Source: a bacterium (GTDB taxonomy: Bacteria; Patescibacteriota; Minisyncoccia; Phycocordibacterales; UBA918). Taken from it: DNA of 34,353 nt. The stretch lies in contig JAUIFS010000005.1 of assembly GCA_030430425.1 (NCBI GenBank), forward strand, positions 1 to 34,353, written 5' to 3'. The notes below the pieces were generated by a model that made no database searches, was not told where the DNA came from, and saw only the letters and a program-made list of their open reading frames with translations. A program made the position numbers and the translations under genes. Below, one piece after another: positions 16,121 through 29,155 of this stretch; positions within the stretch are counted from its first letter, which is position 1; each line of letters starts with the position of its first letter.

Positions 16121-16211
16121 GACAATATGAAAGGCGTCCAGCGATTTGCCCAAGGGCAGAACAAATCGGGACATAAATTCAATATGGTCATTACATTCCT
16201 TATTTCATTTA
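16121..16211 (+). promoter_or_regulatory. Structured 5' leader of rpsF (shared motif, copy 1)
   Basis: gtcc-AG-cgattt-gcc(caag)ggc-agaac-aaatcg-ggac, then aaattcaatatggtcattacattccttatttcatttaATG. Confidence 0.75.
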
Positions 16212-16778
16212 ATGTCAAAAGAAACAATGCCAGCAGCTGAGGCAGCAGAACGTAATAGTTACGAGCTTGCCTTCCACGTACTTCCAACAGTTGCTGAAGG
16301 GGAAGTGTCAGGTGTATTTGAATCAATCAAATCACTCATTACTACAAACGGTGGGGAACTCTTTGATGAGGAAGCACCAGAACGGTTCGATCTTGCATAC
16401 GAAGTGGTAAAACACATCGAAGGAAAGAATCGAAAGTTCACAAGCGCATACTTTGGATGGGTACGATTCCGATCAGAAGGTGCAGCACTTGCAGCGATCA
16501 CAGAAGAGCTCGATGCAGATACAAATATCTTGCGTCATCTTCTCATTAAGCTGACAAAGGTTGAGGAAGCAAATCCATTCCGATTCCATGAAGCACTCGC
16601 AGCAGAGAAAACAGTCACCACAGTTGAAGAATCAAAGGTGGTCCCTGATGTAACTACTGTAGAGAAGGCTACAGAAGCTACTGAAGAGAACGTTGAAGAA
16701 ACTGAAGCAGAAGAAGCTGGAACCGCTGATGATGCTGAGATTGAAGAAGCGCTGTCAACTGAAGAGAAGACGGATTAG
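16212..16778 (+). CDS. rpsF: Ribosomal protein S6 with acidic C-terminal extension
   Basis: YELAFHVLPTVAEGEVSGVFESIKSLITTNGGEL...KFTSAYFGWVRFRSE; followed by ssb and rpsR. Confidence 0.85.
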   Translation: MSKETMPAAEAAERNSYELAFHVLPTVAEGEVSGVFESIKSLITTNGGELFDEEAPERFDLAYEVVKHIEGKNRKFTSAYFGWVRFRSEGAALAAITEELDADTNILRHLLIKLTKVEEANPFRFHEALAAEKTVTTVEESKVVPDVTTVEKATEATEENVEETEAEEAGTADDAEIEEALSTEEKTD

Positions 16779-18321: not shown

Positions 18322-18897
18322 TTATGCCTTTTGTACGCGCTCTGAGTAGAGTCCCGTATCGGTATTTATTGCTATGGTATCTCCCTGTGCGATAAACTGG
18401 GGCACCTGTACCGAGTAACCTGTTTCGAGCGTTACCTCTTTTGTTGCACCACTTGAGGTATTTCCCTTAACCGCGTCAGATGCTTCAGTCACCTTCAGCT
18501 CAACCTTAATGGGCGTGATAACGCTCATGATCTCTTCGTTAAACACTACGGCGTCTACGATACTGTTGCCAGTTACAAACCGTCCGAGTTTCCCAACGAC
18601 GTCTTCACTGAGGCTGAAGCGATCACTGGGGTCAGTAGGGGAACAGAACCAGTATTCTCCCCGATTTTCATACAAAAATTTCACTTCCTTCTTTTCAATG
18701 TCCGCCTCCTGGAGTACATCAGCTTGATGGAATGTCCGGTCAACCACACCACCAGTGCGGAGATTTTTCATCTTTACGGCATTACTCGCTTTTTGCCGGT
18801 CTTTCTTTGAAATGTTTGACGTAAGTACCAGGTAGGGGTCATCATCCATGATGACGGTTCGCTTTGGGAGTATCTCGTTATAGTTGACTTTTGACAT
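18322..18897 (-). CDS. efp: Elongation factor P
   Basis: MSKVNYNEILPKRTVIMDDDPYLVLTSNISKKDRQKASNAVKMKNLRTGGVVDRTF...; three-domain EF-P length (191 aa). Confidence 0.9.
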   Translation of the reverse strand: MSKVNYNEILPKRTVIMDDDPYLVLTSNISKKDRQKASNAVKMKNLRTGGVVDRTFHQADVLQEADIEKKEVKFLYENRGEYWFCSPTDPSDRFSLSEDVVGKLGRFVTGNSIVDAVVFNEEIMSVITPIKVELKVTEASDAVKGNTSSGATKEVTLETGYSVQVPQFIAQGDTIAINTDTGLYSERVQKA

Positions 18898-18989
18898 TAA
18901 ATGAAATAAGGAACGCAGTGACTATATTGAATGTAGTTCCCAATTTGCCCCTTGTCCTAGGGTAAATTGCTGGAACACGAGCAGTAGTC
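18898..18989 (-). promoter_or_regulatory. Structured 5' leader of efp (shared motif, copy 2)
   Basis: RC: gttcc-AG-caattt-accctaggacaaggggc-aaattg-ggaac, then tacattcaatatagtcactgcgttccttatttcatttaATG. Confidence 0.8.
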
Positions 18990-19096
18990 AAAACGTAATT
19001 ATAAATAATTATGCCTTAAGTTATACCAAAATCAGACCCCGAAGGCAAAAAAACACAACTTTATGTGTATGCAATGAGTGGTACTATAGTACCAAC

Positions 19097-20619: not shown

Positions 20620-20642
20620 AATTTTTGTAAATACGAACAAAT

Positions 20643-20688
20643 AATCGCGACAATAAAACCGCCCTAGGGCGGTTTTATTGTCGCGATT
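20643..20688. terminator. 46-bp perfect palindrome, bidirectional terminator between convergent genes
   Basis: aatcgcgacaataaaaccgccctagggcggttttattgtcgcgatt. Confidence 0.85.
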
Positions 20689-20710
20689 GTTTTGGTTATT
20701 TTGCGTTTCT

Positions 20711-22251: not shown

Positions 22252-24468
22252 TTAGTAGGTATTGTTTTCGTCAGCTTCTTCGAGGAGCTCTTCGGCTTCA
22301 CCGTTACTGATGATTTCTCGTGCCTTCGAACCGTCCTGAGGTCCGATGACGCCGCGTTCTTCAAGCATGTCGATCAGACGCGCTGCACGAGAGTATCCCA
22401 CACGAAGTTTCCGCTGCAGGTAGGAGGTAGATGCTTTCCCGGCGTCAATAACTGCTTGCTTTGCGTCTTCGTAGAGATCATCTTCGTCATCATCATCAAC
22501 CAATGAGTCAAACATGGAGCCTGAGTTATTGCCGTCCGCAGGAGCATCAAGATCAATCTGTTCGAGTTCGGCTACATCTGCTTGGTTTTTTAGGAAGTCT
22601 ACGACGTTCTTGAGTTCGTCTTCAGTAACGTACGCAGACTGCAGGCGAATCGGCTTGATGTATTCCTCAGAAGAGAAGAGCATGTCTCCTTGTCCCAGTA
22701 GCTTTTCTGCACCGATTTGGTCAAGAATAGTCCGCGAGTCGATCTGCGACGCAACTTTCATCGCAAGTCGCGTAGGGATGTTTGCTTTAATGGTCCCCGT
22801 GATCACGTTTACCGAAGGACGTTGTGTTGCAAGCAAGAGGTGAATACCAACCGCACGACTCATTTGTGCAAGACGCACAATAGACGCCTCGAGTTCTCGC
22901 GGGTACGCCTGCATGAGGTCCGCAAGCTCGTCCATCACGATAACGATGTAGGGAAGTGGTTCAGGGAGTGCTTCCTGTGCTGCCTTTTCCTCCTCAGGGT
23001 CTTCATACGAAGACGACTCAAAGTCATTTTTTGCAGGCTGGTAGATGTTGCTGTGGTATGAGTTAAGGTTCTGTACACGGTTGTCTTTTAGTACGTCATA
23101 CCGCCGTTCCATCTCCTTTACCGCCCACTTCAGTGCCATAAGTGCTTTTTTCGCGTCGGTGATCACCTCGGTCATAAGGTGCGGGATACCGTTGTAGAGG
23201 GTAAGTTCCACGCGCTTTGGGTCAACCATGATTAGCCGCATCTGGTCCGGTGAGTTTCGGTAGAGTAATGAGACGATCAAGTTGTGGATCATAACTGACT
23301 TTCCAGAACCGGTTGTACCGGCGATCAGACCATGCGGCATGCGTGCAATATTTGCGAAGTGTGCAGCGCCGGTAATGTCTTTTCCAAGTGCGGTCAACAG
23401 TGGGTGCGGGGAGTCAGCAAACTCAGGTGACGCAAGCAGGGAAGCCAGACCAATCGTTGCTTTTTCAATGTTTGGTACTTCAATACCCACGAGCGACTTT
23501 CCAGGGATCGGCGCCTCGATACGAATGGTACTCCCACCGAGGTTAAGCTCGAGTTCACGTTGCAACCCAACAATACGCGCAAGCTTCACTCCCTGTGCAG
23601 GCTTTAGTGCATAGCGGGTAACGGTCGGACCAATCTCAACTTGGTCCATCTCAACCTCAATCCCAAACTCTTGCAGAGTGCGCTTGATAGCGTTTGCGTT
23701 TGCTTTGACGTCACCATTTTTTGCTTTCCCTTTACCCTTCGCCAAGAGGGAAAGAGGAGGTGCTTTGTACGGACCACTGTAGCTTGCCATGACAAACTCC
23801 TCTTTTTTCTTTGTGTCTTTCTTCCCGAGACCGAGGCGTTCAGACACTGTTTTCGTTTCTTTCTCAGTCTCGGGGTCATCTTCCTCTGAAAGGTCTTCCA
23901 AAGGAGTTTCTGGTTCGGTGTCTTCAGGTATTTCCAGTTGCTCGACATCATCGGCAATAGCTTCCTTCTCTTTCTTAGAGAAGCCAGGGAAGTGCAGACC
24001 AGTGTTGAAGGTAAGGAGGATGCCGATCAATGACAACGCAAAGAGTGCAACACCTGCAACTGCTTTGTCTAAGAGTGCAACCAGTGGCCACCCCAAGACA
24101 AGTCCTGCATACCCGCCAGCACCAACTTTCAGAAGTTCAAACAGCCCCAGTATTGCAAGGAACAGTAGTGCGATACCAAATATCTTCGACGCACTCACGT
24201 GTCCATCTTCTTTTGGTTTCCACAGTGCATATATATAGAACACACAGGCAAGCGGGGAGAGCCATTTACCTGCCCCAAAAAGTGCCTCCAAAATTGTGTT
24301 TATGATTTCTCCAAAGTTACCCGCAGTGTTCGTCAGTGATGCGACAAGACAAATGGTCAACAGCCCAAGAATGATCGAGCTCACCCCTTGTTTAGCTTGT
24401 GGGGAAAGGTCGTCAAAAAATGGTTTCCGTTCGACTTTCTGCTTTGTCTTTTTCTTTCGTTTTGCCAT
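22252..24468 (-). CDS. ftsK: DNA translocase FtsK/SpoIIIE
   Basis: N-terminal TMs, GLIAGTTGSGKSVMIHNLIVSLLYRNSP (Walker A), IVIVMDELADLM (Walker B), C-terminal gamma wHTH (ASTSYLQRKLRVGYSRAARLIDMLEERGVIGP). Confidence 0.97.
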   Translation of the reverse strand: MAKRKKKTKQKVERKPFFDDLSPQAKQGVSSIILGLLTICLVASLTNTAGNFGEIINTILEALFGAGKWLSPLACVFYIYALWKPKEDGHVSASKIFGIALLFLAILGLFELLKVGAGGYAGLVLGWPLVALLDKAVAGVALFALSLIGILLTFNTGLHFPGFSKKEKEAIADDVEQLEIPEDTEPETPLEDLSEEDDPETEKETKTVSERLGLGKKDTKKKEEFVMASYSGPYKAPPLSLLAKGKGKAKNGDVKANANAIKRTLQEFGIEVEMDQVEIGPTVTRYALKPAQGVKLARIVGLQRELELNLGGSTIRIEAPIPGKSLVGIEVPNIEKATIGLASLLASPEFADSPHPLLTALGKDITGAAHFANIARMPHGLIAGTTGSGKSVMIHNLIVSLLYRNSPDQMRLIMVDPKRVELTLYNGIPHLMTEVITDAKKALMALKWAVKEMERRYDVLKDNRVQNLNSYHSNIYQPAKNDFESSSYEDPEEEKAAQEALPEPLPYIVIVMDELADLMQAYPRELEASIVRLAQMSRAVGIHLLLATQRPSVNVITGTIKANIPTRLAMKVASQIDSRTILDQIGAEKLLGQGDMLFSSEEYIKPIRLQSAYVTEDELKNVVDFLKNQADVAELEQIDLDAPADGNNSGSMFDSLVDDDDEDDLYEDAKQAVIDAGKASTSYLQRKLRVGYSRAARLIDMLEERGVIGPQDGSKAREIISNGEAEELLEEADENNTY

Positions 24469-24580
24469 TACGTTAAATGAAATTAAATGAAGAAATGAAC
24501 GTAGTGAATATTCTGAATTTAGTTCCTAATATGCTCCTTCCTAGAGCATATTACTGGAACAGAAAACAGTAACTACTGTG
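24469..24580 (-). promoter_or_regulatory. Structured 5' leader of ftsK (shared motif, copy 3)
   Basis: RC: gttcc-AG-taatatgctc-taggaag-gagcatatta-ggaac, then taaattcagaatattcactacgttcatttcttcatttaatttcatttaacgtaATG. Confidence 0.75.
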
Positions 24581-28330: not shown

Positions 28331-28380
28331 CTGACCAAGGGTTACCCTTGGCAAGGTTGCCAAGGGTAGCCCTTGGTCAG
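28331..28380. repeat. REP/BIME: nested inverted repeat 5' of transposase
   Basis: ctgaccaagggttacccttggcaa-gg-ttgccaagggtagcccttggtcag (24-bp arms, 1 mismatch). Confidence 0.9.
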
Positions 28381-28419
28381 GATAAGAAGCCAAGACTTGT
28401 CATGGTATCCTTACATAAA

Positions 28420-29055
28420 ATGGCAACAAGGTACATTTCATTTGCAGAAGGTGAGTTCTATCACGTATATAATCGTGGAGTTGATAAAAGAATTATTTTC
28501 AACACTGATGCTGACTATAGGAGATTTCAAGAGTTGTTGTATGTTGCCAATGCTTCTACTTCTGTGGCGCTTCGTAATTTAAAAAGAAATTACGATTCAG
28601 TCTATACCTATAAAAAGTCCGACAGTCTCGTTGCTATCGGAGCGTATTGTCTCATGCCGAACCATTTTCATATTTTATTGACACCGTTAGTGGAAAACGG
28701 TGTTAGTCTATTTATGAATAAGTTAACAACGGGGTATTCAATGTATTTTAATAAAAAATACGAACGATCAGGAGCACTGTTTTCGGGCACATTTAAAGCT
28801 AAGCATGCTGATGGGGATGAGTATCTAAAATACTTATATGCGTATATACACCTTAATCCTCAAAAACTTTTCAAAAATAAGGGAAACACTTTGAATGTAT
28901 CGATTCGGTATCCGTATAGCAGTTTGGGTGATTATGTAAATGGTGAAAGGGAAGAGTCTATTATCTTAAAAACTAAAAACTTCCCCGAGTACTTTAAGAC
29001 ATCAAACGAGCACCTACACGAACTTACAAGTTGGCTCGAGTTTGACCAAGGGTAG
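28420..29055 (+). mobile_element. REP-associated tyrosine transposase (RAYT, Y1_Tnp/HUH)
   Basis: FHVYNRGVDKRIIF, GAYCLMPNHFHILLTP (HUH), YLYAYIHLNPQK; flanked by REP inverted repeats. Confidence 0.92.
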
Positions 29056-29090
29056 CCCTTGGCAAACATCCTGCCAAGGGCTACCCTTGG
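29046..29090. repeat. REP/BIME 3' of transposase, overlapping its stop codon
   Basis: ccaagggtagcccttggca-aacatcc-tgccaagggctacccttgg, perfect 19-bp arms. Confidence 0.92.
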
Positions 29091-29155
29091 CGGGATGGGT
29101 ATTCCCATTGTTTCTGTGCAGGGTTGTGTCCTTCACGGTATACTATACAAACAAA

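Follow-up and report, generated by a model that had tools for sequence, protein, structure and literature searches.

Similar structured sequences precede rpsF, efp and ftsK in a patescibacterial contig, which raises the question of whether the three genes share a regulatory RNA leader or carry copies of something else. The answer given by the analysis of the window (the whole stretch of 34,353 nt), its source genome and related genomes is, with a probability of roughly 0.84, that the sequence is a small modular non-autonomous mobile DNA element of two adjacent hairpins, belonging to a new family, and not a dedicated 5′ leader.

The copies at rpsF, efp and ftsK share two adjacent hairpins

The three copies (Table 1) were present where the preliminary description had placed them and could be aligned over about 80 nt. 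Their supposed position directly before ATG was found at rpsF and efp, where the last base adjoins the start codon, but not at ftsK, where a spacing of 15 nt was observed. The helices quoted for the left hairpin (HP1) were right, with GTCC/GGAC or GTTCC/GGAAC as outer pairs, a bulge of two bases (AG), and CGATTT, CAATTT or TAATATGCTC in the inner helix, which is long and differs in sequence between copies while keeping its pairing. The following AUUCA..UUUCAUUUA tract is indeed conserved, but it is not the plain sequence it had been taken for: RNAalifold over nine copies detected a second hairpin here (HP2), which the first reading missed and which has the form TAAAT-TC-AATATAG-TC-AC-TAC-GT-TC-CTTATT-TC-ATTTA. 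HP2 comprises 13 pairs, with 94% of cells paired and changes on both sides in nine pairs, and its covariation score exceeded all 500 shuffles and every slid version. HP1 covariation likewise exceeded all 500 shuffles, and the common structure proposed from compensatory changes was confirmed by this stem covariation. HP2 is the even better-supported and more conserved of the two, HP1 being variable. Both hairpins have conserved extrahelical residues, AG in HP1 and a single T in HP2, which also has TC/TC internal loops (GA/GA on the opposite strand); these features would fit protein recognition of folded DNA. Together, HP1 and HP2 make up an element of ~80 nt, or perhaps ~105 nt counting a variable left arm; its left boundary is not fixed.

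Table 1. Element copies and neighbouring features in the window (R1, R2 and R3, scores in bits; R1 is a covariance model).
Feature	Position	Strand	Remarks
Element copy 1	16133..16211	+	Abuts rpsF ATG (16212); R1 limits 16133-16214; R1 94.6, R2 56.1, R3 58.1
Copy 1 hairpins	HP1 16136-16172, HP2 16174-16211	+	
Element copy 2	18898..18978	-	Abuts efp ATG (18897); R1 limits 18895-18978; R1 86.3
Copy 2 hairpins	HP1 about 18936-18978, HP2 18898-18935	-	
Element copy 3	24484..24562	-	15 nt upstream of ftsK ATG (24468); R1 limits 24481-24562; R1 95.9
rpsF (ribosomal protein S6)	16212..16778	+	Copy 1 at start codon
efp (elongation factor P)	18322..18897	-	Copy 2 at start codon
ftsK	22252..24468	-	Copy 3 upstream
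Putative efp promoter, TTGCCT-17-TATAAC	19020..19048	-	Alignment with relatives

The motif TTGCCT-17-TATAAC is probably the efp promoter. In the alignment, both this candidate and the leader before efp are conserved in element-free relatives, which would place copy 2 inside the 5′ UTR. As parts of probable 5′ UTRs, the copies at rpsF, efp and ftsK may have an effect on expression.

Copy number and taxonomic spread

A BLASTN search with the rpsF copy as query matched seven further places in the 726-kb source genome (G000), and model R1 returned 17 matches in it below an E value of 1, of which ten had E <= 1.2e-12 and an eleventh 1.2e-8; the genome holds about ten good copies. Considering both sets of matches and the covariation over 500 shuffles, the likeness of the three copies is far beyond chance. 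With further copies found genome-wide, the first refuting condition of the preliminary description did not arise, though these copies altered the meaning of the initial finding.

Among the relatives, 29 of 59 had R1 matches, nearly all of them in one genus (Kaiserbacteria-like Patescibacteria), within which genomes carry between 0 and 33 copies, several having none. In an order-wide sample, matches were found in 6 of 248 genomes, two of them outside the genus. GTDB contigs were also scanned with the core pattern, the matches then being confirmed by R1. Confirmed copies occurred only in apparent Patescibacteria records (Kaiserbacteria, Paceibacterota, OLB19, UBA7435 and HKST-UBA34 among others, including records with no title beyond "uncultured bacterium"); R1 gave no support to pattern matches in contigs of Clostridiales, Paenibacillus and Treponema. 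With regard to phage carriage, the core pattern had no match in viral contigs. Reduced Patescibacteria genomes are generally regarded as poor in mobile DNA; this family, however, numbers more than 30 copies in one genome of under a megabase and occupies untranslated regions of rpsF, efp, ftsK, rpsS, atp genes and dnaN, all of them core genes.

No Rfam family matched over the whole window at the gathering score, and permissive thresholds returned nothing covering the element copies; the long variants were also without a match. An existing Rfam family does not, therefore, explain the element, and the literature searched contained no account of such a family in Patescibacteria. Spurious microRNA matches in Rfam were due to an inverted repeat next to recA, long and almost perfect (CAATAATCGCGACAATAAAACCGCCCTAGGGCGGTTTTATTGTCGCGATTG; window 20637-20692), which is probably a bidirectional terminator.

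Modular variants

Separate HP1 and HP2 models were built to look for autonomous copies, in which a gene would separate the hairpins; they revealed modular variants but no such gene. The common part is HP2, which is also found downstream of other left hairpins, e.g., of the CCCGATACCAGTTTGG...CTAAACTGTCCTGTG type in the source genome, and the family is therefore undercounted by R1. A module of ~57 nt can lie between HP1 and HP2 in either orientation, and at the efp site the left part differs by genome, each version standing before an HP2 that ends at the ATG. Separable end modules with an optional middle, the build of BOX-like repeats, are accordingly seen as HP1-HP2, as HP1-57nt-HP2 and as other left hairpins joined to HP2.

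The 57-nt module (CTAGTTTTTAA..GACTATAAAAACGGAAAT..GGT) was located at L252:710-751, L249:2256, L251:1785, L253:1786, L256:1959 and L139:8654; it has no Rfam match and is possibly a structured element of its own. At L117, L118, L116 and L108 (G000 contigs 21, 9 and 40), a longer and different left hairpin (CCCGATACCAGTTTGGTA..CTAAACTGTCCTGTG) stands before HP2.

BOX of Streptococcus pneumoniae is a short dispersed intergenic repeat with the build boxA-boxB-boxC, co-transcribed with its neighbours and without its own transposase gene (PMC3049150). The present element shares with it short length and dispersal, composite end modules (5′ and 3′) between which a further one may stand, stable stem-loops, the lack of a transposase gene and probably co-transcription, an analogy of function and build in which sequences were compared via Rfam only. 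Unlike BOX, its end modules are single covarying hairpins, its middle module occurs in either orientation, and its 3′ module abuts start or stop codons.

Presence, absence and orientation at orthologous sites

The vanY-rpsF-ssb-efp-recA-ftsK neighbourhood of the source genome is syntenic in the genus, and the sites at rpsF, efp and ftsK are all empty in G013 and G025, which are its two closest relatives. The efp site is also empty in G015, yet this genome has a copy at ftsK, being the only relative that shares it. When copies were placed on a tree of concatenated proteins, those at efp were scattered (G000, G016, G027, G029 and G031, with weaker traces in G005 and G006), those at rpsF were found in G000, G027 and G059, and those at ftsK in G000 and G015; most relatives lack the element at rpsF. 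About 7 of some 35 genomes, in scattered lineages, have HP2 next to the start codon of efp, with differing left hairpins. Dispersed copies with presence and absence at orthologous sites, as expected of a MITE, are what these comparisons revealed.

The start codons at which sense copies end include those of rpsF, efp, ftsK, rpsS and recR, and antisense copies adjoin the stop codons of dnaN, atpD, dnaB, argS, grpE and others (gene names assigned by eye); genome-wide, sense leaders are a minority. In the dnaB-recR gap, the orientation in G009 is opposite to that in G013 and G015. Copies nested within HP1 of another copy were observed in G022, and tandem copies were also seen. The conserved 5′ leader of the preliminary description is not supported, given the absence of the element from the closest relatives at all three genes, such variable copy number within a genus, and other copies that are antisense after stop codons, nested, or beside a duplicated gene start.

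The HP2 edge often abuts coding-sequence edges

Abutment was defined as an HP2 edge lying -12 to +15 nt from a coding edge and was scored in the 111 copies with enough flank. Coding edges came from mechanical ORFs of at least 80 codons instead of trained gene prediction, which makes the counts approximate in absolute terms: the HP2 edge was at a coding edge in 50 of the 111 copies (35 antisense stops and 15 sense starts), compared with 8 of 111 for the HP1 edge (p = 8e-11) and 71 of 580 random intergenic positions (12%; p = 5e-14). In 14 cases the stop codon starts right next to the terminal TCATT and in 10 it is the TGA within TCATT, these being the commonest arrangements. A leader in sense orientation, conserved upstream of orthologues, is not the pattern found, given the empty sites in the closest relatives and the ratio of antisense-stop to sense-start abutments.

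Genome compactness accounts for part of the abutment, but not for the HP2-facing bias or the exact abutment at efp. Edge abutment and recurrence at efp exceed in precision what random insertion would predict, and some copies could have been retained for function. The precision at gene borders amounts to a testable insertion rule.

Pairing points to folded DNA

In the paired columns of 68 distinct copies, 1688 cells were Watson-Crick, 31 were G-T and 59 were A-C. The G-T share was 1.8% (31/1719), vs 8% (20/249) in control tRNAs from the same loci (229 Watson-Crick and 20 G-T cells), a difference whose Fisher p value (1e-6) is indicative, as copies are related and cells are not independent. The near-absence of G-T indicates that wobble is hardly tolerated in either strand, and selection therefore probably acts on folded DNA and not on a wobble-tolerant RNA switch. 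Covariation of the RNA type, including the G-U pairs expected of a cis-regulatory leader, was not observed, and at rpsF and efp the sense RNA of the element folds less stably than the opposite strand. Both findings argue against the earlier wording "conserved RNA structure" as the description of an RNA leader. As the case illustrates, strongly covarying stems that recur in 5′ UTRs can pass for riboswitches, and a shortage of G-T pairs allows DNA-level hairpins to be told from RNA-level ones.

Flanking direct repeats

Direct repeats of 21-62 nt beginning exactly at the HP2 edge were found in 6 of 122 copies, well above a mismatched-pair control, the left repeat copy beginning 53-73 nt before HP1. 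The repeat includes the start of the neighbouring gene at L109 and L121, and its end at L102. The remaining 116 of 122 copies have no such repeat, so either the target is not always duplicated or most duplications have decayed. At L121:3175-3480 (G006 contig 55), a gene start and the element are amplified in tandem (X-E-X-E-X'), which suggests that flanking repeats drive local duplication there.

The YPAL/RU-2 element of Yersinia is palindromic, measures 168 bp and has target duplications of 3-26 bp (PMC2229807). By analogy, the present element is also palindromic, lacks TA-ended terminal inverted repeats and shows putative target duplications that are long and variable (21-62 nt, 6 copies), but it consists of two tandem hairpins with a gene-edge preference, and both sequence and host differ.

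Interpretation and alternative explanations

The mobile-element reading rests on the dispersal of copies, the empty sites, the occurrence of both orientations, nesting, the few flanking repeats and covariation restricted to Watson-Crick pairs. A putative trans-acting enzyme would recognise the hairpins as folded DNA, and insertion would place the HP2 end at the target, insertions at coding-sequence edges presumably being those that are targeted or that the host tolerates. The element would be transcribed within the 5′ UTR at rpsF and efp, and probably also at ftsK, any effect on expression being a by-product and not the reason for which the structure is conserved. A bolder proposal, still speculative, is a family with undescribed machinery in which the folded HP2 end integrates with near-nucleotide precision at coding borders (before ATG or after stop), striking efp again and again in lineages independent of one another and so providing essential genes with hairpin leaders that can be exchanged.

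That a cis-regulatory RNA leader (regulon- or riboswitch-like) of rpsF, efp, ftsK, rpsS and others has spread by duplication appears improbable. It would agree with the strong covariation, with HP2 recurring at efp and with sense copies finishing exactly at the start codons of five named genes, recR included; however, antisense-stop abutments outnumber sense-start ones, the closest relatives are without the element, tolerance of G-U is almost nil, the less stable RNA at rpsF and efp is the sense one, and the left hairpin varies between species at the same efp site. The preliminary description was correct that this is not an S6:S18 site: although, as with the S6:S18 rpsF leader, the element lies here in the rpsF 5′ UTR, it has no Rfam match, occurs at many unrelated genes, also antisense to them, and is missing at rpsF in most relatives. 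Slightly less probable still is a non-mobile chromosomal element maintained by the host (a protein-binding or nucleoid site, or a transcript insulator) and put at gene borders by selection. Such an element would account for abutment with HP2 towards the gene and for the same gene edges recurring in several species, but hardly for 0-33 copies within a genus with several genomes lacking any, nor for copies that are nested or in tandem, nor for the direct repeats at their flanks.

A narrower version of the mobile-element reading, compatible with it but rather unlikely, is that of a REP/REPIN or an IS200/IS605-derived MITE moved by a Y1 (HUH) transposase, e.g., the RAYT of the window. Many of these genomes have Y1 genes, and the layout of HP2, guide-hairpin-cleavage-site, is that of IS608 right ends. 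Furthermore, the conserved extrahelical bases of the hairpins and their covariation by Watson-Crick exchange alone recall ssDNA substrates (cf. PMC8266576). Against this version, G022 (26 copies), G033, G014, G006 and G003 carry copies and have no Y1 match, the window RAYT and the IS200 of G000 contig 36 have other terminal palindromes, no GTAG/GGAG tag stands at the hairpin base, and long direct repeats would be unusual for elements of this family.

Candidate mobilisers and related systems

The searches for a mobiliser, which covered Y1 transposases and reverse transcriptases, linked no transposase, integrase or reverse transcriptase to the element, and neither of the two enzyme classes follows copy number. 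The window RAYT and the IS200 TnpA of contig 36 were rejected as mobilisers for their differing palindromes and the copy-rich genomes without Y1, and a reverse transcriptase because it is absent from most copy-rich genomes (G000, G015, G022, G014 and G006). No terminal inverted repeats are shared with the two Y1 elements of G000, HP1 and HP2 being internal palindromes. Compared with REP/REPIN and its RAYT (TnpAREP; PMC8266576), the element likewise consists of dispersed, ssDNA-hairpin-like palindromes with conserved bulges, and a RAYT gene is present in the window; it differs in that the foot tag is not conserved in the flank logo, in the other palindromes of that RAYT and in the many element-rich genomes without Y1. 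An integron attC site was considered from structure and appears unlikely, the consensus R-box not being seen; a bidirectional terminator was rejected, copies lying within the atp and grpE-dnaK gene strings and lacking a T-run downstream.

The RAYT-like Y1 transposase gene of the window lies between CCAAGGGTAGCCCTTGG palindromes of its own (28336-28386, 28418-29055, 29046-29094) and is unrelated to the element. At L009:540-1140 (G000 contig 36), a tRNA-like stretch (GGCTCCGCGGATAGGATTCGAACC) interrupted by long inserts lies beside the IS200 transposase and is possibly an interrupted tRNA gene.
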